Below, piece by piece: positions 9,273 to 62,040 of a stretch of DNA of 64,000 nt. The DNA comes from a virus: IMG/VR virus record IMGVR_UViG_3300005289_000016, positions 1-64,000 of that record; one strand, given 5' to 3'. Position 1 is the stretch's first letter; each line of letters starts with the position of its first letter. The notes beneath the pieces were generated by a model. That model did no database searches, was not told where the DNA came from, and worked only from the letters and a program-made list of their open reading frames with translations. The translations under genes were made by a program, and so were the position numbers.

Positions 9273-12200
9273 CCGCTACATGAAACTGTTCGGCATCCGC
9301 AGGCTGGGTGAGTTGGAGAATCCACGAGTACGACCAATCGCACGATTCGGTTTGCCTCGTGGGTCCAACGTCCACTACATGCCTGTGAATGAAACCGAAC
9401 TGGGTCCGGCTGCTTCCAGCCAGATCATTCAGGCAGCGCAACGTCTGGTCTTCATCGACCATGTTCCTGACCTGCTCTCGAAGGAGGGTAACCCCCGCCC
9501 CACGTTCAAGCTCATCGCACCGATGATGCAGCAGTACCGTCGCGAGAACATGACCATCCGCCCAATGCGGGATTATGAAGCAGCGGCAAAAGAACCCCTG
9601 AACATGCTCGTAGTCAACTACGCCATGGTCGCGCAGATGTACAAGTACCAACGGTCGGCTCTGAGTCGCTGGTGGAACTGGCGTAACCTCAGGACCACTC
9701 AGTGGGAACGCTTCAACCAGCTCAAGACTGAACACGAGCGCCATCACATCATCCTGTTTGATGTGCCTCAGACTCTGCCTTCATTGTCTGATCTGCGTAA
9801 AGCTGAACGGGGCATGACTCCGACGCTGATGCAGGTGTTCAACAGTCGTGAGCGTCTGGATTTGCTCGACCTGTTTATCTGGTTGGGTGAGAACCGCCAG
9901 CGCACGCCGATGGGTCGTCTGGATGAGAACCGTCTGAGTGAGATCGAGCTGGTTATCCGTAAGGACACTGGTTGGATCAGCCTGAACCTCGGCCTGCTCA
10001 ACGGCTGGCGTAAGGCTGTCACTGGTGTGTCGATGGAATCGTTCGTCGAACAACCAGTGAGTGAGGACTTCGATTTCGAGGATACCTACCAGCGTTATGT
10101 TTCCATGGAAGCGGCAGGGGATGACACCCTTGATCCTGACATGGGCGTGTCGATGGAAGCTGGGCAAGGTCTCGATCCTAAGATCATGCAGGTGCGGTTC
10201 CTGAAGTTGCTCACCAAGGTCATTGACCAGACCAACCCAGTGCAAGTGATCTCTGCTCAAGAAGTCGAAGCCCAGCAACAAGTCAGGGCTGACGACGATG
10301 CAGAAGAGAAAGCTGAAGAGCAACAGCAGCAACAGCAATCGCTGAAAGAGAACGGTGCTGAAGATCTGCTCGTTGAAGAAGAGGAAGAACTGGCTGAGTC
10401 CTTGGACGCTCCAGCTACCTCCAGCAACGACGCAGAACTGACCGACGAAGACGGCGAGCTGATCGTTGAGACCGGTAACCAGCCTACCACTGAACCGATT
10501 TCACAGATCGTGGCTGATGGCGCTACCGAACACACCCTGACCAGTTCGATCCAGAACAAGATTGACGAGTTGGTGGAGAAGGACGTCCTGACGGCTGCGC
10601 AGTATCGCCGCATGCAGCGTTTGGCTGAATCGTACAAGACGATGCCAGACCCGTGGGACAAGACCAAGACTGTCGAGACCTCCTTGGAGATCAAGCAGGA
10701 AGATCTGGTCCTTCAGGAATCTGAACCGTATCCAGAAATGGAATCGGTGCGTGACAAATCGATGTTGCAGTCTACCGTCGAGAAGATGGACAGTCAGTAC
10801 ATCGAGAAGGTCATGAAGAGTGACATCTTGAACGCCGTTATGTCCGTGCAGAAAGCAGGCATTGCTGTAACGGGGTACGAGATCGAAACCGTGCAAGATG
10901 CGGTCAGTCACTACGAGATCCACAAGGTCCAACTGACTCCAGTCACCGGCAAACCTTCGACCATCTCGTTCCGTGTGCCGGTGGTTGACAAGCGGGGGTC
11001 GTACACCTCCAACGGTCAGAAGTATCGCATGCGGACTCAGAAAGCTGACGTGCCGATCCGTAAGGTCTCGCCAATCCGCGTTGCCCTGACATCGTACTAC
11101 AGCAAGCTGTTCATCGAGCGCTCGCAGCGTGCTGTGTTCAACTACGACAACTGGATCGCCAAGCAGATCATCGCTAAAGGCATGGATCTGGCTGACACCT
11201 CCATCACCAACGTGAAGATCGCTAACGTAGCGAACTTTGAACTCGACCTGCCGACAGTCTACACGATCATCGGTACCCGAGTGATGAGCTTCGAGGCTAA
11301 CGGCCATTACTGGTTCGACTACAAGAACCGGGAGCGCAGTCGCCTGTTCGACATGAAGCTGGTGGAATCCCTTGAAGCTGAACACAAGGGAATGATCGTC
11401 GTAGGTCGTCGTGCTCAACGTTACATCATGGTGGATCGTGAGAACGCGTTCTATTTGATCGACAACAAGAACGGCCAAGTCAGTGAGTTGGGTCAGATCG
11501 AAGACATCCTTGGTTTGAACAAGGACAAGTCGCCGGTCTCCATGGCCGAGATCAGTATCTTCGGCAAGACCATGCCTGTCGGTATCGCCTTGGCGTACTT
11601 GGTAGGTTTGGATAACCTGCTGACCATGACCGGTGTCAAGTTCCGTGCTGTGCCTCTGGGTACACGGGTGCAGATGTCGGACGATGAGTACGCGATCAAG
11701 TTCCTCGATGAAACCTTGGTCATGGACAAGTCGGATGTGAAGAACAGCATGATCTTTGCTGGCTTCCTCCACTACCATAAAGCGATCCGTCAGTTCTCGC
11801 GTCACAGTTTCAACGGCAAGGACGTGTACTTCAACATCCTTGAAGCCAACGGCATCGGTTTGCGCTACCTGCGTGAACTCGACCTCATGAATGCCATGTG
11901 GGTCGACCCGATCACCAAAGGCGTCCTGGAATGGATGAAAGAGCCAACGGAATTCATCCCACTGTTGCAACGTGCGGTGGAAATGTTGGTAACTCGCCAT
12001 GTGCCCAATAAGGTTGAGGGTGCTGATGGGTTGGTGGAAGGTCAAGAACGTGCGAAGGGCTACGAACGTATCCCAGGCGCTATCTACGCCGAGATGGTCC
12101 GGTCTATCCGGGTCTACAACTCGCGTCAAGGTGGTCCGACCTCGCAAGTGACCATGAAGCCTCACGAAGTCTGGACCAACATCGTACAAGACCCGGCCTC

Positions 12201-13641
12201 GGCGATTGTCGATGACATCAACCCGATCCAAAACCTCAAGCAGAAAGAGATCATCACTTACGGTGGCCGTGGTGGCCGCAGTGGGCGGTCGATGACTGCT
12301 GAGGCGCGTCTGTATAAGGAATCCGACATCGGGTTCATCTCGGAATCCACCGTGGACTCCGGGGACGTGGCGGTCATTACCTACATGTCTCCAAACGCGA
12401 ACATCACCAGTGTGCGCGGTACGGTGCGGGCTTACGATAAAGAGAAGGACGGTGCAGCTAACATCGTATCGACCTCCGCCCTGATCAGTCCGTTTGCAGA
12501 CCGAGACGACCCTAAGCGGGTGAACTTCATTGGTATCCAGCAATCTCACGTAATCTCCGCTGACGGTTATCGTGAGTCTCCAATCTCCACCGGCTATGAC
12601 CACGTGTTGGCCCACCGTGTTGATGAGATCTTTGCTGTCCCGGCTACCAAAGCGGGTGAAGTCATTGAACGCACTGACAACCACATTGTGATTGCGTACG
12701 AAGACGGTACCTTCGAGCATCTGGATCTGACCACCCAGTACGGCATCTCCGCTGGTTCGGTCTACCCGCAGAAGCAAGACTCCACCTTCCAGTTGGGTGA
12801 CAAAGTCAAGCCAGGCGACATCTTGAAATTCAACTCGGGCTTCTTTAAGCCGAGCCGGTTCGAACCACGTCAAGTGCAGTGGAAGGCTGGGGTGATTGCG
12901 CGTACGGCTCTGATGGAAGCGTCCTACACGCTGGAAGACTCCTCGGCAATCGATGATTGGTTGGCGGGTCAGCTGGGTTCGGAAGTCACCAAAGTCAAGA
13001 CCATCGTCGTGCAATTCGGGCAGCACCTGCGTAACCTGGTAAAACCGGGCGACCACACGGACATCTCGAGTATTCTATGCACGATTGAAGATGCTGTAAC
13101 GGCGGAAGCTGGACTGTTCTCGGACGAAGACCTTGAAACCCTTCGCAAGATGGGCTCGGCGGCACCACTGGCTGGTGCGGTTGGCGAAGTCTCGAAGATC
13201 GAGGTGTTCTACCACGGTGACCCGGACGACATGTCGGACTCGCTGTTGGAGCTGGTTACTGCCCACGACAAAGAACGTCGTAAGGTGGCCAAACGTCTCG
13301 GCAAACCGGTTGTCACAGGTCAGGTCGACCAATCCCTTCGTATCGACGGGAACGGTCTGGAACTCGATCACGTTGCGATCAAAGTCTACATCACTCACCG
13401 TGAAGGCATGGGTGTCGGTGACAAGGCAGTGTTCTGTAACCAGATGAAGACAGTAGTTGGTCATCGCTTGAGCGGTGTCAATGAAACCAAGTCGGGTTCT
13501 CGGATCAATGCCGTCTTCGGCGCCAAGTCGGTAATGGACCGGATTGTATCCTCGGCCCTGCTGATTGGCATGTCCATCTCTGTCCAACGCGCCATCGGCG
13601 AGAAGGCAGCAGAGATGTGGATGAGCAACGATACCAAGTAG
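9250..13641 (+). CDS. Virion RNA polymerase beta-like subunit (phiKZ gp178-like)
   Basis: A 1463-residue protein. Near residues 1389-1400 it has VGDKAVFCNQMK, matching the bacterial beta segment GDK...NK whose two lysines contact the nascent RNA end. Both lysines are kept. Downstream SGSRINAVFGAKSVMDRI matches the region that joins beta to beta'. The protein ends about 60 residues later, so the C-terminal beta clamp segment is absent and probably separately encoded. Residues about 255-420 form a low-complexity acidic linker with a glutamine run and three SME tripeptides (261, 285, 301). These fit the S/A-x-E rule for phiKZ-type prohead protease sites. A start ATG at 9250 has AGGA 10 nt upstream. 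Four genes downstream is the protease itself. Confidence 0.87.
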   Translation: MAVMFLYDRYMKLFGIRRLGELENPRVRPIARFGLPRGSNVHYMPVNETELGPAASSQIIQAAQRLVFIDHVPDLLSKEGNPRPTFKLIAPMMQQYRRENMTIRPMRDYEAAAKEPLNMLVVNYAMVAQMYKYQRSALSRWWNWRNLRTTQWERFNQLKTEHERHHIILFDVPQTLPSLSDLRKAERGMTPTLMQVFNSRERLDLLDLFIWLGENRQRTPMGRLDENRLSEIELVIRKDTGWISLNLGLLNGWRKAVTGVSMESFVEQPVSEDFDFEDTYQRYVSMEAAGDDTLDPDMGVSMEAGQGLDPKIMQVRFLKLLTKVIDQTNPVQVISAQEVEAQQQVRADDDAEEKAEEQQQQQQSLKENGAEDLLVEEEEELAESLDAPATSSNDAELTDEDGELIVETGNQPTTEPISQIVADGATEHTLTSSIQNKIDELVEKDVLTAAQYRRMQRLAESYKTMPDPWDKTKTVETSLEIKQEDLVLQESEPYPEMESVRDKSMLQSTVEKMDSQYIEKVMKSDILNAVMSVQKAGIAVTGYEIETVQDAVSHYEIHKVQLTPVTGKPSTISFRVPVVDKRGSYTSNGQKYRMRTQKADVPIRKVSPIRVALTSYYSKLFIERSQRAVFNYDNWIAKQIIAKGMDLADTSITNVKIANVANFELDLPTVYTIIGTRVMSFEANGHYWFDYKNRERSRLFDMKLVESLEAEHKGMIVVGRRAQRYIMVDRENAFYLIDNKNGQVSELGQIEDILGLNKDKSPVSMAEISIFGKTMPVGIALAYLVGLDNLLTMTGVKFRAVPLGTRVQMSDDEYAIKFLDETLVMDKSDVKNSMIFAGFLHYHKAIRQFSRHSFNGKDVYFNILEANGIGLRYLRELDLMNAMWVDPITKGVLEWMKEPTEFIPLLQRAVEMLVTRHVPNKVEGADGLVEGQERAKGYERIPGAIYAEMVRSIRVYNSRQGGPTSQVTMKPHEVWTNIVQDPASAIVDDINPIQNLKQKEIITYGGRGGRSGRSMTAEARLYKESDIGFISESTVDSGDVAVITYMSPNANITSVRGTVRAYDKEKDGAANIVSTSALISPFADRDDPKRVNFIGIQQSHVISADGYRESPISTGYDHVLAHRVDEIFAVPATKAGEVIERTDNHIVIAYEDGTFEHLDLTTQYGISAGSVYPQKQDSTFQLGDKVKPGDILKFNSGFFKPSRFEPRQVQWKAGVIARTALMEASYTLEDSSAIDDWLAGQLGSEVTKVKTIVVQFGQHLRNLVKPGDHTDISSILCTIEDAVTAEAGLFSDEDLETLRKMGSAAPLAGAVGEVSKIEVFYHGDPDDMSDSLLELVTAHDKERRKVAKRLGKPVVTGQVDQSLRIDGNGLELDHVAIKVYITHREGMGVGDKAVFCNQMKTVVGHRLSGVNETKSGSRINAVFGAKSVMDRIVSSALLIGMSISVQRAIGEKAAEMWMSNDTK

Positions 13642-20712: not shown

Positions 20713-20740
20713 ATTCAAGGGATCTTCGATAATACATTAT
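20713..20740 (+). promoter_or_regulatory. Candidate early phage promoter
   Basis: ATTCAAGG at 20713 and ACATTAT starting at 20734 give the same 21-nt start-to-start spacing as the other sites. It lies just after a terminator and 108 nt before the gene at 20842. Confidence 0.6.
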
Positions 20741-43326: not shown

Positions 43327-43352
43327 TCAAACATTTAATGAAGATACATTAT
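43325..43352 (+). promoter_or_regulatory. Candidate early phage promoter upstream of PhuZ gene
   Basis: AGTCAAAC at 43325 and ACATTAT starting at 43346, with the shared 21-nt spacing. It is a looser fit to ATTCRA than the others. It is 54 nt upstream of the ATG at 43400. Confidence 0.5.
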
Positions 43353-43399
43353 CATTGTGTGCAACTCCCAAAACCATCAACCTCAATGAGGAAGTCATA

Positions 43400-44389
43400 A
43401 TGAGTCACGGTCTCTCTTCTCGTCCAGTCGGCACCATGCGTATCTACGGCTGTGGTGGCGGTGGTGTAAACATCGGTAAGGAATACCTCGAAGCCGGTCA
43501 CAGCGCTGACATCGCGAATATCGAAACCTGCTTCGTCGACACCTCCGACTCCAACCTCGAAGATCGCCTGCTCGACAAGACCTGGCTGTTCGACGGCCTC
43601 GACGGTTCTGGTGCTATCCGTCAGGAAAACGCTGACGCCATTGCCAAGGCAGTGCCGGACATCATCCGCAAGTTCCCACCTGCTGAAATGAACGTCGTGG
43701 TCTTCACCCTGGCTGGCGGTACTGGTTCGGTATCGGGTCCCCTGATCCTGAAGAAGTTGCTGGACGACGGCCACATGGCTATCGGCATCGTGGTCTGGGC
43801 TCAACAGGCCATCAAGAACGCCGAGAACACCATCGGCGGCGTGAAGACCCTGGACAACATCTCGCGTTCCTGCGGCATGCCGGGCATCATTCACCTGGGC
43901 TTCAACAAGGCAGGCGTCGTATCCGACAAGTCCGTCGACAACGAAGCTCACCTGATGATCACTGCCCTGGCTGCACTGTGCTCGCGTCGTAACCACGGCC
44001 TGGACACCGCAGACTTGAAGTCGCTGTTCAACTTCACCAAGTCGACCAAGGCTCCTGCTCAGCTGTGCCGTATCCACGTCTCCGACAACATCGAAGACTT
44101 CACCAAGCTCATGCGTTCCGGTGCTCTGGCCTCGGCGTACCTGCTGCGTGAAGCCACCGACCCGATCCCGGAAATCTTCGTACCGTACAACACCTTCGGC
44201 GTGATGCCTGCAATCGCACAAGCCAAAGGCAGTCTGTTCTTCGGTATCGAGAACGGCAGCATGGGCGAACTGCGCAAGCGCGTCTCCGAGCTGGAAACTG
44301 AAATCGCTGACCAGCAAAATGCCGCTACTGAAGCAGTGGCGTTCGCTGGCGAAAAGGACAAGCCAACGGCCTCCGGCCTGGTTTGGTAA
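43400..44389 (+). CDS. phuZ: Tubulin/FtsZ-like GTPase PhuZ (phiKZ gp39-like)
   Basis: 329 residues. The ATG at 43400 has GAGGAAG upstream. An N-terminal Rossmann-like start (MRIYGCGGGGVNIGKEYLEA, residues 13-32) is followed by a tubulin signature loop GGTGSVSGP at 106-114, a variant of the GGTGSG G-box that contacts GTP phosphates. A helix and the T5/T7-type region follow. The C-terminus has a coiled-coil-like segment (MGELRKRVSELETEI) and ends ASGLVW, with no obvious acidic tail. PhuZ filaments form a bipolar spindle that centres the phage nucleus in Pseudomonas and carries capsids. The presence of PhuZ is strong evidence for the nucleus-forming phage group. Confidence 0.87.
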   Translation: MSHGLSSRPVGTMRIYGCGGGGVNIGKEYLEAGHSADIANIETCFVDTSDSNLEDRLLDKTWLFDGLDGSGAIRQENADAIAKAVPDIIRKFPPAEMNVVVFTLAGGTGSVSGPLILKKLLDDGHMAIGIVVWAQQAIKNAENTIGGVKTLDNISRSCGMPGIIHLGFNKAGVVSDKSVDNEAHLMITALAALCSRRNHGLDTADLKSLFNFTKSTKAPAQLCRIHVSDNIEDFTKLMRSGALASAYLLREATDPIPEIFVPYNTFGVMPAIAQAKGSLFFGIENGSMGELRKRVSELETEIADQQNAATEAVAFAGEKDKPTASGLVW

Positions 44390-51907: not shown

Positions 51908-54199
51908 ATGGAAAATCCGTTTGTACTTCCGAAGGAAGCCTATACCCGTGACCTCGACTTGCTGAAGGGGTACTTTGAACAAAATACCCACTATCTGCAT
52001 CGGATGACCGGGCAGCCGGAAGACAAGTGCTTGGCGTTCCTGAAGCGTACACTCTCCCGAGGTGGGAAGTACCCGCTTCGTGATCCAAACATGCTGGTCT
52101 TGAAACAAGAATCACCGGGCAACCGGGTCAAAACTGAAATGACCCTGCTCAGCTACGTCAAAACCGTGACCGACAGCAACCGAATCATCAGTCCATCGAT
52201 GGTTTGCTACGAGAACCCGAAGGTGTTGAAGTCCCCTTCGGCCAAGTTCGTTGAATCGGGCATCGCAGGCCGTAAGAAAGCCAAGAACGAGATGTTCCTT
52301 GCTCAGGTAGCAGGGGACGAGACCCTTGAGAAGATCAAAGACGCCGAGCAGAACGCCAAGAAGATCGCGATTAACTCGCTGTCAGGTATGCACGGCTTCA
52401 CCGGCAACATCCTGTACGTGAAATCGGGTCACTCCAGCCTGACTTCCATGTGCCGTTCGGCTACCGGCTACGGTAACGCCAGTAACGAGAAGCTCTTGGC
52501 AGGGTCAAGACACTATTGGTCACCCAAGATAACGATTGCGAACATCCTCGCGCTGGTCAAGAGCCAACCGCACGAGGAATTCCGTCAGGTGATGGACGAT
52601 TGTGGCTTCGTGTACCCGTCGACTGAGCAAACCGCTGCCTGTATCAAACGTTCGACCGACCTGTACTGGCGCAATGAGGCTAACTTCCAGAAGATCGTTG
52701 ATCTGATCGAGAAGCTGACTCCGCTAGAGCGTGCAATCGTGATGTACACGGGTGACCTGTACCACATTGCCAAGCTCAACGATGGTTTTGTCCGTGGGTT
52801 CATGGACCGGATCATCAAGCATGAGCCTCGTAACGACCAGACTCAAATCGACGACCCGTTTGATGTGCTGCGCAGCAAGAAGTTCGACGACGACACCAAG
52901 ATGCTGGCTACTTACCTGAACGCCGACGTGACTCGAGGTGAAGACTTCGATTCCATGAAGGAAAAGGGCATGGTTGCGGAGCTGGCATTGGTCGCCAAGT
53001 CTTCGGCCAACATCCAGAACACCTTGCAGGATTACTTCCAGTTCATCCGGGTGTTCCTGACTCCGGTATTGCTAGCACCGACCGTAGCGAACATCAAGGG
53101 CATCCTCCGCCGCGTGGTACTGGCGTCTGACACAGACTCCACGATCTTCACCACGCAAGAATGGGTGACTTGGTACACCGGTAGCGACGTGCGTAGCCGT
53201 GAAGGTGACGGTATCTGGTACACCACGACGTACGTGGCTTGCCAGTGTATCGTGCACGTACTGGCGAAGCTCTCGGCGAACATGGGCGTGATTCAGGAAG
53301 ACCTGCACCGCCTCACCATGAAGAACGAGTACGCCTTCCCGGTCTTTACCTTGACCAGTCGGGCAAAGCACTACTACGCGTTCATGAGTGCTCGTGAAGG
53401 TCGCGTGTACCGTGACTACGAGATGGAGATCAAAGGCGTAGCCCTGCGTTCCTCCACTGTACCGGTGGCAATCATCAAGCAGGCCAAGGCGTTCATGAAG
53501 GAAGTCATGACCCGTGCGGATGAGAACCGTCAGTTCACGCTGGAAGAGCTGTACCTGCTGGTCTGGCGTTTGGAGCAAGACATCTACACCTCGATCAAGT
53601 CCGGGGAACACCGTTACCTGAAGTCAGCACAGATTCAGGAATCGTACCCGAACATGAACAAGGAAGACCCGTTCCGTGAGAAGACGAACTACCGTCACTA
53701 TCACTTCTGGGAAACCGTCTTTGCGCCGAAGTATGGCCACGTAGAGTCTCCACCGTTCTCTGTGATTAAGGTTCCTCTGGCGATCAATAACAAGACCGAC
53801 ATGCAGAGCTGGTTCACTCACGTAGACAACACTGACCCGGACATGGGCGTACGCCTGCGTGACTACTGTGCACGGGCTGGTAAGGACAAGATGGGCACGC
53901 TGATGCTGCCCCTGTCGATCCTGTCGGGCATCGGGATGCCAGATGAGGTCATGGCCATGATCGACGTCCGTCGTCTCACCTACGAGATCCTGGAGTCGTT
54001 CTACATGATCCTCGAGACGCTGGGGATCTTCCAAGTGGACAGCAACTACGTCCGCTTGATCAGCGACATCTATACCCCATCGGGCGAAGTCAACCTACAG
54101 CCCGATCCAACTGACGCTAACAGCATCATCCTCAAAATCGACGAGGGTGAGGAAGAGGAGTACGAGGAAGATGACGGAGAAGACTGGCTTGCCGACTGA
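51908..54199 (+). CDS. Family B DNA polymerase, palm-thumb part lacking an obvious motif A
   Basis: 763 residues. AAGGG lies upstream of the ATG. Motif B is present at about 145-160 (DAEQNAKKIAINSLSGMHGF), with the K and NSxxG pattern that binds incoming nucleotide, followed by SLTSMCRSATGYG. Motif C is ASDTDSTIF at 406-414, with D408 and D410 as catalytic aspartates. The DxxSLYPS motif A expected before motif B is not visible in the first 145 residues, and no exonuclease domain is present. The N-terminal exonuclease and motif A may be encoded by another gene. The C-terminus is acidic (EEEEYEEDDGEDWLAD). It replicates phage DNA, probably inside the phage nucleus. Confidence 0.8.
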   Translation: MENPFVLPKEAYTRDLDLLKGYFEQNTHYLHRMTGQPEDKCLAFLKRTLSRGGKYPLRDPNMLVLKQESPGNRVKTEMTLLSYVKTVTDSNRIISPSMVCYENPKVLKSPSAKFVESGIAGRKKAKNEMFLAQVAGDETLEKIKDAEQNAKKIAINSLSGMHGFTGNILYVKSGHSSLTSMCRSATGYGNASNEKLLAGSRHYWSPKITIANILALVKSQPHEEFRQVMDDCGFVYPSTEQTAACIKRSTDLYWRNEANFQKIVDLIEKLTPLERAIVMYTGDLYHIAKLNDGFVRGFMDRIIKHEPRNDQTQIDDPFDVLRSKKFDDDTKMLATYLNADVTRGEDFDSMKEKGMVAELALVAKSSANIQNTLQDYFQFIRVFLTPVLLAPTVANIKGILRRVVLASDTDSTIFTTQEWVTWYTGSDVRSREGDGIWYTTTYVACQCIVHVLAKLSANMGVIQEDLHRLTMKNEYAFPVFTLTSRAKHYYAFMSAREGRVYRDYEMEIKGVALRSSTVPVAIIKQAKAFMKEVMTRADENRQFTLEELYLLVWRLEQDIYTSIKSGEHRYLKSAQIQESYPNMNKEDPFREKTNYRHYHFWETVFAPKYGHVESPPFSVIKVPLAINNKTDMQSWFTHVDNTDPDMGVRLRDYCARAGKDKMGTLMLPLSILSGIGMPDEVMAMIDVRRLTYEILESFYMILETLGIFQVDSNYVRLISDIYTPSGEVNLQPDPTDANSIILKIDEGEEEEYEEDDGEDWLAD

Positions 54200-55110: not shown

Positions 55111-56346
55111 TTACAGGGGCTGCTGTGCTGCTTGAGGCGAGGTGTTCAGCAGAGGCAGGACGTTCTTGGCAATGAACGCGTTGATCCCGATCGAAACGTC
55201 CGAGGGCAACTGGTTCACCAAGTACTTACCGCTCTCTGCTTCCGTCAAGCTACGACGGATACGGTTACGGTCAGCGTCGTTCTTCATGTTCTTGGCCAGT
55301 TGGTCGAACTTGAGGAGCATCGCAATCACCGGGAGCCGCGCCATGGTCAAGGCCCAGATGGCTTGGTTGGTGTAGGCAATGTCCGGCATCCGCACTGTCT
55401 GGATCAAGGTATCGCTACCAAACACCGGGATGTTCGACAGGATGTCCTTGTAGTACAGTGTCTGGTTAATGAACCGGGTAGCCAGCTCATTGAGACCCTT
55501 CTCCAGTTTCGGGTAAAGGTCAGCCGTGTAGAACGGCATGGCGCTGTCCACCTTGACGTACCCATCTCCCCCGATGAGGTGGTGCAAGGTGTTCCCAACC
55601 GCCACGTCCAGATGACTGGGCAGGATGTTAGGAATGATGATCTGCGTGAGGAAGTGCGCCACAGGGAAGACAAAGCCCTCAGGGGCCATGCTCGCTGTAG
55701 CCATCCGCCACAGGTGATACTGACAGGCCAGCAGTGGGATGTTGACTTCAAGGACCGCGGTAGCGCCCACGGGCAATCCCTTGATGTCATTCGTCCCGTC
55801 CAGTTCAATAATCCCACAACCCATAATAGGATGTGAGAGTACCCTCACCGGGCTCATATTCCGCCAGTTGAACCAGATCTGGCCTGGAGTGACTTCATCG
55901 TCAGCAATAGCGATGATGACTTCATTCACGCCCTTGCCGTAGAAATGGCTGTGGTTCCTGACCCGCCCGTGGTGGCCGGCGGTGCAGAAGCCCATCTGAC
56001 CAGCGAGTCTGTCGACAATGCTGGAGACACGGAGATAGTAGTCGGGTAGGTCGCCATCGAAAGGGATGTCGACCATGCCCAGGATCTTCTGTAGCACGTG
56101 GTCGCTCTTCAGGTACCCGGGGTTTGATGCCCGTAACTGTTTATAGCGGCCCACCTGTGTGCTCATCAGTTCGCGCTTAACGTAGTCGAGACCGAAGGTG
56201 GCAATGTTAGTCTGCCGGAGCCTCGACTCAGTGTTGAACAGTTGGTACATGGCGATGGTCCATTGGCGGGTAAGTCTCAAAGGATAGCCGGATCTTCTTA
56301 CTAAGGTGGTGCGAGTGGAATCGTAAAAAATAACCTGAGACTGCAT
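55111..56346 (-). CDS. Putative virion protein, 411 aa
   Basis: Starts MQSQVIFYDSTRTTLVRRSG at ATG 56346. The ribosome site is poor, so the ATG at 56250 (MYQLFNTESRLRQ) cannot be excluded. It is mixed alpha/beta with GVNEVIIAIADDEVTPGQIW, HPIMGCGIIELDG and a helical C-terminal half ending LNTSPQAAQQPL. Composition and strand (minus, opposite to the flanking early genes) suggest a late gene. The function is unknown. Confidence 0.6.
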   Translation of the reverse strand: MQSQVIFYDSTRTTLVRRSGYPLRLTRQWTIAMYQLFNTESRLRQTNIATFGLDYVKRELMSTQVGRYKQLRASNPGYLKSDHVLQKILGMVDIPFDGDLPDYYLRVSSIVDRLAGQMGFCTAGHHGRVRNHSHFYGKGVNEVIIAIADDEVTPGQIWFNWRNMSPVRVLSHPIMGCGIIELDGTNDIKGLPVGATAVLEVNIPLLACQYHLWRMATASMAPEGFVFPVAHFLTQIIIPNILPSHLDVAVGNTLHHLIGGDGYVKVDSAMPFYTADLYPKLEKGLNELATRFINQTLYYKDILSNIPVFGSDTLIQTVRMPDIAYTNQAIWALTMARLPVIAMLLKFDQLAKNMKNDADRNRIRRSLTEAESGKYLVNQLPSDVSIGINAFIAKNVLPLLNTSPQAAQQPL

Positions 56347-56478
56347 ATGCTATAGGAGATCTGCTCCGGCTGAGTTTATCGCTCAGCACAAGAGGAGGGT
56401 ATTTCCTTTTCCTGGAAAGATCGCACGTATTTTTAAACCCCCTGGTCGAATCATAATGAGGCTCTCTGCACGAATTCC

Positions 56479-56506
56479 ATTCGAACTTCGTACGGTGCTA
56501 CATTAT
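56479..56506 (+). promoter_or_regulatory. Candidate early phage promoter upstream of nucleus shell gene
   Basis: ATTCGAAC at 56479 and ACATTAT starting at 56500, with the shared 21-nt spacing, 77 nt before the ATG at 56577. The leader between them contains GAAGC-AAA-GCTTC and ACTAGGCCTAGT palindromes. The remainder of the 230-nt gap (56347-56576) holds nothing else I can name. Confidence 0.62.
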
Positions 56507-56576
56507 AAAGTTGAATACAGAAGCAAAGCTTCGAGTTCACTAGGCCTAGTAACGTTATTATCCAAGGAGTCACACC

Positions 56577-58487
56577 ATGGCTGTACAAGACGACATCGAC
56601 AACACCTCCTCGAGCAACGAGCGTCCAACTCGCGAAGCTCCACGTCAAGAGCGCACCGAGCGCACTGCCCGTGAAGCCCAGCCGACTACCGCTGGCCTGC
56701 TGGACATCAACCGCCTGCTCGGCGCCCCGATGTCCCGTCGCATCAGCGGCGAAGTGCTGGTCAACGCTGTTAAGTCGGTTAAGCACTGGTTCGATCCAGA
56801 GCGTCAGGTTGCAGGCGCCGGCCTGATCGACCTGTCCAAGATCCAAGTCCTGGGTCTGGAAGCTTCCGAGCACAACGTCAGCATCTCCTCGGTGATCCTG
56901 GCTTACCCAGTAGAAGACAACGGCACCGTCAAGGTTCTGGTGTCGGCTCTGGCCCTGTCCTCGAGCATGACCGACGACGCCACCGTGCGTAACGTCGAAA
57001 TCAACCACCGCACCTACCCGCTGCCGATCATCGCTTCCGACTACATCACCGAGAGCTACCTGGCTCTGGTTGACGAAATCGCGAAGAAGGCGTTCGAAGG
57101 TCAGCGCCGTAACGTGGAAATCGTGCGTGCCGGCTGGCGCGTAGTGAGCCACAAGGTCGACTTCAGCGAACCAGAAAACACCGAAGTGCGTCAGGTCGTG
57201 TTCTACGCCCAGGCCGCTCTGGCGTCGATCTACGCGAACCTGTTCCAGCCTGACCTGTACTTCTCGCTGGACTGGCTGAGCAAGCAGTCGACTCTGGAAA
57301 TCAACGTTGACCTGTCTGGCCGTGAAGCCCAGACCGCTGACGGTCTGCCACGTCGTTCCGACCTGGCCGTTACCGTTGCCGGCATCGTGCGCAAAGGCGA
57401 CCAGAACATCCCTGTTGGCCTGGCCAACCTGGGCGGTTACGTCAGCATCATGTACACCCCGCCGGTAGAACAGGATCGTTGGTCCCGTACCCAGCGCCGT
57501 GATCAGCCGTACTTCACTCCGATGTACGTGATCAACCGCATGGACACCAATGCCAACGGTATCACCCCTGAACTGCTGCTGCTGGCTCTGGCCGGTGCGT
57601 CGGTGATCTCCAAAGACCAGGCGTGGGCTCAGACCTACCTGCCAGGCGACATCGCTCGCGGTGATGTTGACTACCGTGACGCTGGCCTGCTGAACATCCT
57701 GGGCCCGGATCAGGACAAGACTCCGGTCGAGTTCGACAACCGTGCATCGCTGGACACCCACAAGTGGGCGCAGTACTTCTTCAGCCTGGTTGACGACCAA
57801 CTGGCCTGGGCAATCGAGCTGGAAGAAGGCGGCGACAACAGCTGGATCACCTCCCTGCTGTCCGACGCTGCAACTGACGACAGCGCCAACAAGGACGCCA
57901 TCGGCCGTCTGTACGACTACGCCGACCGTCTGACCAACGGCAACTTCACCCGTCGTGCCCGTGAACTGGGCGTCGAAGTCCCGCTGCAAATGTCCGGTGC
58001 TCGTTACCTGACTGGCACCTGGATCGACGAGAAGGGCAACGAGCGCGATCTGCGTGACTGGGACCTGCTGCGCTGGATGGCCACCAACCCGAATGACGAG
58101 GGCGAATCCGCTCTGCGTTACCAGGACGTGATCGACCGCACTGACCTGGACGTTGAAATCCGCGTCAGCGAGCAGTACGACCAACTGACCGGCGCCCTCG
58201 GCGCGAGCAACGTGAAGTTCGCTCGTTACGTGGACCTGGCCTTCATCAACCCGCAGTTCATCGAAGCGCTGGCAATGGCCGTTGCTGATTGCAAAATCAA
58301 CATCGACCAGCGTTCCGCTCACTACACCTTCGGCAACCGTCGCCTGCGTGGTAACACTCGCATCCGTGACTTCGTCGGCGGTGACCTCACTCACGGCATG
58401 CTGTCTGGCCGTCGTGTGACCGGTGACGGCGCTCGTTCGCTGCGTGGCAACGTCGGTAACGGCTACGGCTTCGGCAATAGCTTCTAA
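56577..58487 (+). CDS. chmA: Probable phage nucleus shell protein, chimallin (phiKZ gp54-like)
   Basis: 636 residues with AAGGAG 7 nt before the ATG. The first 40 residues are Ser/Arg/Glu-rich and probably disordered. A globular region follows, and the last 45 residues are Gly/Arg-rich (RRLRGNTRIRD, GARSLRGNVGNGYGFGN). Disordered N- and C-terminal segments around a lattice-forming core, and length near 600-630, are what is known of chimallin. The gene directly precedes the N-terminal beta' part of the non-virion RNA polymerase, as phiKZ gp54 precedes gp55. Its strong ribosome site and early-type promoter fit the abundant early shell protein. The identity rests on context, size and layout, not on a recalled alignment. 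Confidence 0.7.
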   Translation: MAVQDDIDNTSSSNERPTREAPRQERTERTAREAQPTTAGLLDINRLLGAPMSRRISGEVLVNAVKSVKHWFDPERQVAGAGLIDLSKIQVLGLEASEHNVSISSVILAYPVEDNGTVKVLVSALALSSSMTDDATVRNVEINHRTYPLPIIASDYITESYLALVDEIAKKAFEGQRRNVEIVRAGWRVVSHKVDFSEPENTEVRQVVFYAQAALASIYANLFQPDLYFSLDWLSKQSTLEINVDLSGREAQTADGLPRRSDLAVTVAGIVRKGDQNIPVGLANLGGYVSIMYTPPVEQDRWSRTQRRDQPYFTPMYVINRMDTNANGITPELLLLALAGASVISKDQAWAQTYLPGDIARGDVDYRDAGLLNILGPDQDKTPVEFDNRASLDTHKWAQYFFSLVDDQLAWAIELEEGGDNSWITSLLSDAATDDSANKDAIGRLYDYADRLTNGNFTRRARELGVEVPLQMSGARYLTGTWIDEKGNERDLRDWDLLRWMATNPNDEGESALRYQDVIDRTDLDVEIRVSEQYDQLTGALGASNVKFARYVDLAFINPQFIEALAMAVADCKINIDQRSAHYTFGNRRLRGNTRIRDFVGGDLTHGMLSGRRVTGDGARSLRGNVGNGYGFGNSF

Positions 58488-58502
58488 CTGACGTCATAGC
58501 TT

Positions 58503-58522
58503 GGGGGAGCCTGTGCTCCCCC
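58503..58522 (+). terminator. Terminator after nucleus shell gene
   Basis: GGGGGAGC and GCTCCCCC pair over 8 bp around CTGT, followed by TTGTTATGCCTTTTTATTTT. It starts 15 nt after the stop at 58487. Confidence 0.75.
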
Positions 58523-58565
58523 TTGTTATGCCTTTTTATTTTCACCGAGCATCTAGGGGAGGTCA

Positions 58566-60029
58566 ATGAAAAAGCGTAATGGCATTTACTTACGCGTGGT
58601 GGGTTACGACACCATGTTCATGCATCAGTCGCATCCTGCGATCCTGATGAACGACTTCAACATCGATCTTGAGGCCGACCGTCTCAAGCTGAACAACCTG
58701 ATTTATGCCAGCCTCGACGGGGACTCGCTGAACAACACGGCGAGCTGTGACTGTGGACTCATCCACGGCATGGACAATTACGGCATCCGCTGTAATGACT
58801 GTCTGAGCTTGGTAATGCCGATCACTGAGAAGCCATTGGAGACTCTCCTGTGGATCAAGTGCCCGGCAGGTATTAAGAAATTCATCAACCTTACAGTGTG
58901 GCGGATTCTCTCGAAGAACCTGACACACTCGAACTTCAATATCCTGGAGTATCTTTGTAACCCGCGCTACACGGCTGCCTCTCCCCTGGCGCCGGACAAG
59001 ATGCGCAAGCTGGATAAGCTGGAAATCCCCCGTGGCTACAACCACTTTGTTGAGAACTACGAGTCCATCCTGGTAGCGCTGTTTAAGGCTGGCTTGATTG
59101 GTCCATCGGCATCTGCCCGTAAGCGTAGAAAGATCATGCGCTTCTTGCAGGAGAACTTCGACCGGACGTTCTCGGATTACCTGCCATTCCCTACGCGTCT
59201 TGGGTTCATCAAAGAGAACTCCAACAACCGCATCACGGCCGACCCCAAGATGGTGTCTGCGGTTAACGCCGCGCACATCCTGATCGGGATCGACAACCGT
59301 GAGACTGCCGAGAACCAGCCCAAGCTGGCCCAGGCGGTCAAGGAAGGTCGCGTTGTCAGCGCACTCCAGCACTTCAACGATTACTACAAGACCTTCGAGT
59401 CTGAGGTGATCTTCAAGAAGCCTGGCGTAGCGCGGAAGCTGATCTACGGCACACGTCCGTACTTCGGCTACCGTGCGGTGATCACGTCGCGTCAGAAGCC
59501 TCACCGGCAGGACGGTATGGAGATGCCGTGGTCTGCGAGTACCTTGCTGTTTAAGGTCCACTTGCAGAACAAGCTGCTGACTCAGGGGTACATCCCCAAC
59601 GAGATGCAGGCCCTGATCTACGAGAACACTTTGCGTTGGCACCCTGAGCTGGACCGGCTGTTCAAGGAGCTACTAGCCGAAGCTCCGAACGGTACCATTC
59701 CAACCACCTTCGGTCGTAACCCAACCCTGACCCGTGGCTCTATCGGCTATAACCAGATTGACACGATCAAGTCTGACCCAACCGACAACACCATCAGCAT
59801 CTCGCCGCTCAACCTGATCGACAAGAACGCTGACTTCGATGGTGACGCACTGTGGGGCGAATTGCCGCTCGATCAGAAGAATGCGAAAGTCATGAGTCGT
59901 CTTGATCCAGTCACCGGCGTCATGGACCTCGACAAACCGTTCACGGTGTCCCGTAACACAACGCTTCCACCACCGTTGATCGCGACCATTACCAGTTGGA
60001 TCGTCGAGGGCGACCAGATTTCACGATGA
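58566..60029 (+). CDS. Non-virion RNA polymerase beta'-like subunit, N-terminal part (phiKZ gp55-like)
   Basis: 487 residues. GGGGAGG lies upstream of the ATG. Cysteines C61, C63, C76 and C79 (CDCG...CNDC) form a zinc-binding site like the beta' N-terminal zinc ribbon. Near 380-425 are RNPTLTRGSIGYNQ and NADFDGDALWGELPLD, matching the bacterial beta' active-site region with the magnesium-binding DFDGD. The protein ends about 60 residues later, so the rest of beta' is elsewhere. It shares the split point and catalytic motif with the virion beta' at 7599 but keeps the zinc site that one has lost. It follows the shell gene as gp55 follows gp54 in phiKZ. It transcribes late phage genes. Confidence 0.85.
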   Translation: MKKRNGIYLRVVGYDTMFMHQSHPAILMNDFNIDLEADRLKLNNLIYASLDGDSLNNTASCDCGLIHGMDNYGIRCNDCLSLVMPITEKPLETLLWIKCPAGIKKFINLTVWRILSKNLTHSNFNILEYLCNPRYTAASPLAPDKMRKLDKLEIPRGYNHFVENYESILVALFKAGLIGPSASARKRRKIMRFLQENFDRTFSDYLPFPTRLGFIKENSNNRITADPKMVSAVNAAHILIGIDNRETAENQPKLAQAVKEGRVVSALQHFNDYYKTFESEVIFKKPGVARKLIYGTRPYFGYRAVITSRQKPHRQDGMEMPWSASTLLFKVHLQNKLLTQGYIPNEMQALIYENTLRWHPELDRLFKELLAEAPNGTIPTTFGRNPTLTRGSIGYNQIDTIKSDPTDNTISISPLNLIDKNADFDGDALWGELPLDQKNAKVMSRLDPVTGVMDLDKPFTVSRNTTLPPPLIATITSWIVEGDQISR

Positions 60030-61183: not shown

Positions 61184-62008
61184 ATGTCCCAAGTTGTTAA
61201 GCTCGTTACCTCCAACGGCCCGATCCTTGTTCTGGCCAGCCTGCTCCTGAACCGTGCTGACGGCAGCGAAGTCCGCGCAGGCGAACTGGTTGCGGGTGAT
61301 GGCTACACCGTGACTCGTGGTGGCGCTCAGTTCAGCGAAACCGTTACCGAAGTGCTGGTTCCGACCGCTGAAGAAGCGCGTGAGTTCCTGCAAGAAGCTC
61401 GCATTGCCAAGCTGGAAGATCTGGTGGAAGACCAAGGCTCCCGCCTGGAAACCACCGAGAAAGCACTGGAAAGCGCCAACAACGCCCTGCTCGGCCTGCA
61501 ACGCACCATCGTTGAGCTGACCGCTTCGCACATCGACCGCATCTTCACCGATCAGGTCATGGTCGACAGCCTGGCTCAGCGCTTCTTCATCGCCGGCGCT
61601 AACGCCATCGCTCACAAAGCCCGTCAGTCCAAGGAGCGTACTCCTGAGCTGATCGTGATCGAGCAAGCGATCCCAGGCGCTATCCGTGCGACCCTGAAAG
61701 AAGAAGGCGGCGTGCTGGTCGAAGAACAGCTGAAAGAAACCGGTGAGTGGGTTACCGGCGAGCAGCTGTCCGAAGCCATGCAGGCTGACGTGATTCAGGA
61801 AGTGTTCGGCAACCTGCTGGCCAGCTCCGGCTGCACCATCGGTCGTCCGTACTTCATCGTTGAAGACGTGCACCTGGAAGAGTTCCGCAAGCAAGCCGCT
61901 GCTGGCGCTCGTGAAGCCCTGAGCCAAGTGGCCGGCGCTGCTGCACCTGTGACTGAAGAAGCTCAGGCACCTGTCGAAGCTGAGCCTGAAGCTCCGGTCG
62001 TTCACTAA
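61184..62008 (+). CDS. Protein of unknown function, 274 aa, with coiled coil
   Basis: Starts MSQVVKLVTSNGPILVLASL, with AGGAG before the ATG. The N-terminal 60 residues are beta-rich (ADGSEVRAGELVAGDGYTVT). Residues about 70-115 form a predicted coiled coil (KLEDLVEDQGSRLETTEKAL...). A globular helical part follows and the last 40 residues are Ala/Glu/Pro-rich and disordered. Strong codon bias similar to the abundant shell gene suggests high expression. Not recognised. Confidence 0.65.
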   Translation: MSQVVKLVTSNGPILVLASLLLNRADGSEVRAGELVAGDGYTVTRGGAQFSETVTEVLVPTAEEAREFLQEARIAKLEDLVEDQGSRLETTEKALESANNALLGLQRTIVELTASHIDRIFTDQVMVDSLAQRFFIAGANAIAHKARQSKERTPELIVIEQAIPGAIRATLKEEGGVLVEEQLKETGEWVTGEQLSEAMQADVIQEVFGNLLASSGCTIGRPYFIVEDVHLEEFRKQAAAGAREALSQVAGAAAPVTEEAQAPVEAEPEAPVVH

Positions 62009-62020
62009 GACCTGCACTGG

Positions 62021-62040
62021 GGGAGAGCTTCGGCTCTCCC
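62021..62040 (+). terminator. UUCG-tetraloop terminator
   Basis: GGGAGAGC and GCTCTCCC pair perfectly around TTCG, followed by TCTTTTA. The UUCG tetraloop gives high stability. It starts 13 nt after the stop at 62008. Confidence 0.78.

Follow-up and report, generated by a model that had tools for sequence, protein, structure and literature searches.

We read the gene at positions 56577-58487 of the window examined here, i.e. the first 64,000 nucleotides (nt) of the 276,032-base virus record IMGVR_UViG_3300005289_000016, as coding for chimallin, the protein known to form a nucleus-like shell around phage DNA. The phage would be a nucleus-forming one and belong to the lineage of Pseudomonas phage pPa_SNUABM_DT01 (hereafter DT01). 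To this reading, together with the course of expression proposed below, we assign a probability of about 0.95. Family, fold and gene order, the other nucleus genes and those of the non-virion RNA polymerase (nvRNAP), as well as a promoter motif and a terminator as sequence features, were computed here. In kind the gene is ordinary: it adds a new and divergent sequence to a known family and sits where chimallin genes usually lie.

Identity of the shell protein and its genomic context

The 636-codon open reading frame (ORF) was confirmed on the + strand, and the identity that a previous sequence-only reading had considered probable for its product is borne out by profiles as well as by sequence. 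The Pfam profile PF25677 (Chimallin_Phikzvirus) matches with an E-value (E) of 6.4e-33 and a bit score of 114, its cut-off being 27, while PHROG 4795 ('nuclear shell protein') covers the whole length of the protein (E 1.5e-59), and a sequence search matched the solved chimallins of PhiPA3, 201phi2-1 and Goslar (E 2.5e-21 to 2.7e-16). A long antisense ORF (56451-58394) most likely results from codon bias, with all homology residing in the + strand frame.

Structural modelling required a cross-lineage alignment: an AlphaFold model from 15 close relatives only was poor, with a predicted local distance difference test (pLDDT) score of 43.7, while an alignment of 26 sequences, whose relatives from further lineages were taken from IMG/VR, yielded a pLDDT of 74.6 and a predicted template modelling (TM) score of 0.76. 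In a Foldseek search of the PDB with the latter model, the top nine matches are solved chimallin chains of 201phi2-1, Goslar and PhiPA3 (E 2.5e-31 to 2.6e-26; TM score by target 0.77-0.84), the tenth has an E of 0.1, and weak matches to GNAT acetyltransferases follow. These weak matches agree with the C-terminal domain of chimallin, published as GNAT-like (PMC9365700), and the model accordingly displays the predicted two-domain chimallin fold with a GNAT-like C-terminal domain. In a viral library, the first 17 matches were full-length, several of them from jumbo phages. Both ends of the protein are predicted to be disordered, as had been claimed (pLDDT below 50 at residues 1-56 and 587-636). 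The length of the tails fits a role in linking protomers, and alignable segments lie at about residues 42-51, 588-608 and 622-632, though disordered in the model. Comparison with solved chimallins and the search for another family, both suggested along with the original reading, place the protein with the chimallins, and no capsid protein occurs among the PDB matches of the model.

The downstream neighbour, a confirmed 487-codon ORF, encodes the N-terminal part of the beta' subunit of nvRNAP, matching phrog_2987 (E 1.1e-130) and phiKZ gp55 (E 2.6e-60), so that the order asserted by analogy with phiKZ gp54-gp55 is found here. The DFDGD motif, which had likewise been noted beforehand and whose role is published for phiKZ gp55 (PMC8287921), occupies residues 423-427, close to the end of the frame, and the C-terminal part of beta' is a separate gene, orthologous to gp74. 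Homology, the DxDGD motif and a split after that domain thereby all point to an N-terminal beta', which also carries a zinc-binding-type motif (CxCG...CxxC) at residues 61-79. It is orthologous to phiKZ gp55 over its length and shares its position and DFDGD. In phiKZ, an HNH gene separates the DFDGD part, which has its own frame farther downstream, from the rest, consistent with an intron, whereas the window gene is one frame. Of the nvRNAP genes, phiKZ has two with interruptions (gp55 before DFDGD; gp71/gp73), and each of them is a single continuous frame here (58566-60029; L008 10632-12866). The genome also encodes the remaining four nvRNAP subunits, namely the orthologues of gp68, gp71-73, gp74 and gp123 (the last at 218271-219806), in addition to a virion RNA polymerase subunit (gp178) at 10444-13632.

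Where genes adjoin, their order is collinear with phiKZ gp50-gp75, running from DNA polymerase through gp52, chimallin, gp55, gp59, gp62 and SbcD to gp66, gp67, gp68, gp69, gp70, gp71-73, gp74 and gp75. The succession of DNA polymerase, gp52, chimallin and N-terminal beta' is that of phiKZ and recurs in very divergent chimalliviruses, and in 21 of 21 named phages examined beta' follows chimallin directly or past one or two small genes, an adjacency that published core blocks predict (PMC10299810). Chimallin and the conserved core gene order, the latter judged where genes adjoin, place the phage within the Chimalliviridae. Orthologues of PicA and ChmC also occur in the genome, where we take PhiPA3 gp61 to be ChmC and gp69 to be PicA. 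The phiKZ homologue of PhiPA3 gp61 is gp67 (PMC10643120), and the roles of ChmC and PicA have been described (PMC12908238). PhuZ was found in the window as stated earlier (Table 1), and together with chimallin and gene order it supports, at the level of gene content, the view that the phage forms a nucleus.

The phage belongs to the DT01 lineage: among 50,697 phage records, DT01 is the sole near DNA match, with 79% identity across 86% of the 12 kb compared. Fifteen IMG/VR loci carry DT01-lineage chimallins (69-100% identity). IMG/VR scans with the LucasX and Eowyn chimallins as queries returned no relatives. A new genus is proposed in the paper on DT01, whose text lacks the words nucleus, shell and tubulin (PMC8541153). 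The chimallin of DT01, deposited as a hypothetical protein (QTH80347.1), is 85.8% identical and shares neighbours, promoter and palindrome type; DT01 differs by a small gene, PA10_00146, between gp52 and chimallin, and no homologue of it or of phiKZ gp53, the small gene at that place in phiKZ, was found at 56251-56576. With the chimallins (ChmA/PhuN) of 201phi2-1 (gp105), Goslar, PhiPA3 (gp53) and phiKZ (gp54), the protein has in common both domain folds, disordered tails and length, and the genes agree in their neighbours as well as in promoter pattern and distance. The chimallin of the window's clade differs in its C-terminal tail, which is longer in the part that separates the CTS1-like from the CTS2-like segment, and in an identity of about 18-27% to these four.

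Candidate early promoter and palindromic leader

A candidate early promoter, TACATTATAAAGTTG, precedes the chimallin gene and would set the start of its message at 56513. The pattern TACATTAT-N5-TG occurs nine times in forward orientation in the 276-kb record, with no reverse occurrence and none for a reversed control; in the 80 kb examined, TACATTAT alone has five copies, all of them on the + strand. These five copies precede chimallin, PhuZ, the nvRNAP genes orthologous to gp68 and gp71-73, and a 159-aa gene, and DT01 carries the motif at four orthologous places. For jumbo phages, the early promoters reported consist of an AT-rich motif at -10, which varies from phage to phage (PMC7598289). 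Being conserved, AT-rich, strand-specific and located before early genes, TACATTAT-N5-TG has the properties expected of such a promoter. In phiKZ, TATATTAC-N5-TG is found 80 nt before gp54 and also before gp68, TATATTAC presumably being the phiKZ early promoter consensus. Both lineages thus have a short AT-rich core with TG five bases on, confined to one strand and placed before early genes, but the core itself differs (TACATTAT versus TATATTAC).

Across 26 chimallin loci, the best match to the promoter pattern mostly lies 71-91 nt 5' of the start codon; it is farther out in four (97, 127, 137 and 158 nt), and the LucasX locus has no credible match. The pattern beats shuffled sequence (p <= 0.023) at 23 of these loci, the exceptions being D6, Moabite and LucasX. 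Sigma-70-like promoter matches were no more frequent than by chance (4 found, 3.7 expected). The early-promoter-like motif at -78 and a codon bias that exceeds that of every other gene among the 52 compared (effective number of codons 30.9, with a mean of 44.3 and a standard deviation of 5.8) are consistent with the strong early expression signature attributed to the gene beforehand.

Elsewhere in the record, the motif precedes a macro-domain-like gene (record position 87723, L049 1501-1993; PF01661 E 3e-4, just under the cut-off; phrog_335 E 2e-21) and three other genes. The stretch 5' of the chimallin promoter (56251-56498) contains blocks kept in all clade relatives, e.g. GTAAAAAATAAC, GGTATTTCCTTTTC and AATTCCATTCGAA, and a GATTCCATTCAA-like stretch also lies 5' of the promoter motif at 20733.

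Between promoter and ribosome-binding site, the chimallin leaders of most lineages contain a long perfect palindrome about 18-38 nt past the predicted start, the sequence of which differs by lineage: ACTAGGCCTAGT in the window, TTCTTGATCAAGAA in phiKZ, TACTTGATCAAGTA in PhiPA3, TGTTCGCGCGAACA in LucasX (leader start set by hand), ACACACTCGAGTGTGT in FLC9, ACATTAGCTAATGT in RAY, CAATCGCGATTG in SNUABM_37, AATGACGTCATT in Goslar, TTTCATTGCAATGAAA in Moabite, CAAAGCGCTTTG in PCH45 and TTTATAAAAGCGCTTTTATAAA in SPLA10. Over 14 representative lineages, which are not fully independent, the combined p is 7e-10 against dinucleotide shuffles and 2e-11 against same-locus windows in tests made after the pattern had been noticed. 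The same test was null for other early leaders, both for 12 of phiKZ (0.97) and for 10 from this phage and DT01 (0.98). The palindrome is absent from the Noxifer and Eowyn chimallin leaders, and EaH1 and KpLz have short ones only. With scoring confined to the stem of the best hairpin with a four-base loop, the loop proved self-complementary in 8 of the 13 lineages other than the window's (expected 1 in 16, p 2e-7), and such a self-complementary centre is easier to reconcile with a dimeric interaction than with a plain hairpin.

In addition, a 5'-terminal stem is predicted, with a p of 0.75 in the window alone and a combined p of 1.5e-5 over the 14 lineages. Within the window's clade, RNAalifold recovered the palindrome only, invariant and devoid of compensatory changes, and no 5' stem; hence, covariation within the clade gives the structure no support. 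Folding energies of the chimallin leaders are only mildly below those of shuffled sequence (z -0.4 to -2.1), and Rfam returned no known RNA in the window.

Tentatively, and with the odds leaning against it, we propose a chimallin-specific leader, spread across the nucleus-forming phages, that is composed of a candidate 5' stem and, right behind it, a lineage-specific palindrome; the latter would be selected for its symmetry and not its sequence, have a self-complementary centre and act dimerically. Two chimallin messages could pair via the palindrome, which would gather their translation at the place of shell initiation; alternatively, a protein dimer might bind the leader or its DNA and thereby set the supply of shell protein. 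A plain message-stabilising hairpin that guards the 5' end from RNase and has no dimeric partner comes nearer to an even chance, though it falls short of one, given that the predicted 5'-terminal stem includes G-U pairs in several lineages and that such a hairpin fits the need for high early expression; yet the four central bases, which ought to form its free loop, are those found self-complementary in 8 of 13 lineages, and the folding energies are only slightly lowered. That the palindromes are an artefact of chance and after-the-fact selection, or shared ancestry devoid of function, is improbable: the timing of the tests, the relatedness of the lineages, the four leaders with short or absent palindromes and the missing covariation within the clade are in its favour, but the combined p under two nulls and the null result for 22 other early leaders contradict it, and since the palindromes are unrelated in sequence, they are not accounted for by descent from a single one. 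Judged against the open-access literature, the palindromic leader is the one potentially novel element of the locus.

Transcription units and weighing of the reading

The 78-nt gap between chimallin and beta' contains GGGGGAGC-CTGT-GCTCCCCC followed by a T-rich tail, a predicted intrinsic terminator. Similar hairpins are situated between the two genes in many lineages and carry a terminator annotation in LucasX and Moabite. Furthermore, the N-terminal beta' gene is outside the 15 most biased of the 52 genes examined for codon bias. Owing to the terminator and the unequal codon bias, chimallin and beta' are probably separate transcription units, perhaps with read-through. The statement that the one is immediately followed by the other therefore holds for gene order and has to be qualified for the gap, which accommodates the predicted terminator. 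A single operon, co-expressed as a module for nucleus formation and transcription, is rather unlikely: the shared strand, the short gap, an order kept throughout the family and the absence of an early-type promoter motif between the genes would suit it, but not the hairpin that recurs in the gap, the differing codon bias, or the extra genes that separate chimallin from beta' in several phages.

As a capsid protein might, the 636-residue protein combines large size with the strongest codon bias of the region, and its gene adjoins one whose phiKZ counterpart, gp52, is annotated as a head structural protein. On the level of sequence and modelled fold, a capsid or other virion structural protein with a superficial likeness to chimallin is nevertheless already refuted, with next to no probability left, by a curated chimallin profile far over its cut-off, a full-length PHROG match and significant structural matches to the nine solved chimallin chains only. 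Several points do weigh against the chimallin reading and its expression course. The protein has a low identity, about 18-27%, to chimallins from other lineages, and the lattice-forming tails are predicted to be disordered and align only loosely with CTS1 and CTS2. The early promoter is a candidate sequence motif, its start site inferred rather than mapped, and nucleus formation by this lineage is a prediction from genes and model. Since terminator-like sites are not enriched over the region (8 found, 6.1 expected), the terminator call stands on position and recurrence.

Upstream of chimallin, the gp52 orthologue probably starts at codon 33 of the listed ORF, given that the phrog_3938 alignment begins at this residue and that the upstream ATG is missing in the relatives L016-L018; such a start leaves a non-coding stretch of about 326 nt before chimallin. 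Downstream, a protein of 274 aa that no family matches confidently (61184-62008) has the second-strongest codon bias (effective number of codons 31.7) and is probably another highly expressed protein; a terminator-like hairpin (62019-62040) follows its gene.

Table 1. Positions of genes and predicted elements around the chimallin locus.
Feature	Position	Strand	Basis
PhuZ tubulin	43400..44389	+	phrog_4733 E 3.4e-68; PF00091 E 9.5e-10
Early promoter motif before PhuZ	43345-43359		
Divergent family B DNA polymerase (phiKZ gp50 orthologue)	51908..54199	+	PF20286 E 1.5e-220
Divergent phiKZ gp52 orthologue	55111..56250	-	phrog_3938; kz052 E 3.8e-16
Candidate early (virion RNA polymerase) promoter, 78 nt before chimallin start	56499..56513	+	Motif
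Candidate 5'-terminal RNA stem of chimallin leader	56513..56538	+	Predicted fold; weak in the window itself
Perfect palindrome ACTAGGCCTAGT between promoter and ribosome-binding site	56539..56550	+	Recurrence in chimallin leaders
Ribosome-binding site AAGGAG	56564..56569	+	Sequence; conserved in all aligned clade leaders
Chimallin (ChmA), phage nucleus shell protein, 636 aa	56577..58487	+	Profile, sequence, model and structure matches
Hairpin in the chimallin-beta' gap, predicted intrinsic terminator	58503..58522	+	Sequence; recurrence in lineages
nvRNAP N-terminal beta' (phiKZ gp55 orthologue), 487 aa, uninterrupted	58566..60029	+	phrog_2987, phiKZ gp55
DFDGD catalytic motif of N-terminal beta'	59832..59846	+	Sequence and published motif role

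Proposed course of expression and its meaning

Timing and level of expression, assembly of the shell and any role of the leader are what we infer from these features, in line with the published behaviour of chimallin and nvRNAP (PMC9365700, PMC12908238, PMC8287921, PMC13282480). The virion RNA polymerase, injected with the DNA, would read chimallin from the TAYATTAY-N5-TG promoter 78 nt upstream, and the message, with its palindromic leader and strongly biased codons, would be translated heavily. Chimallin would then assemble via its N- and C-terminal tails into a square lattice enclosing the phage DNA. Transcription would mostly end at the terminator behind the gene, and the N-terminal beta' would contribute half of that subunit to the second, non-virion polymerase, the enzyme for transcription of later genes within the nucleus.

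The gene pair widens the known chimallin family and gives a name to what the deposited sequence of the closest isolated phage lists as a hypothetical protein. What the analysis adds is regulatory: a candidate early promoter motif is found in front of the genes for shell protein and tubulin as well as of two polymerase genes, and this motif renders the claim of early expression testable. Moreover, a palindromic leader is proposed for the very gene whose early and heavy expression starts the phage nucleus, and it may constitute a small, testable handle on how assembly of the shell starts at the right place and dose.

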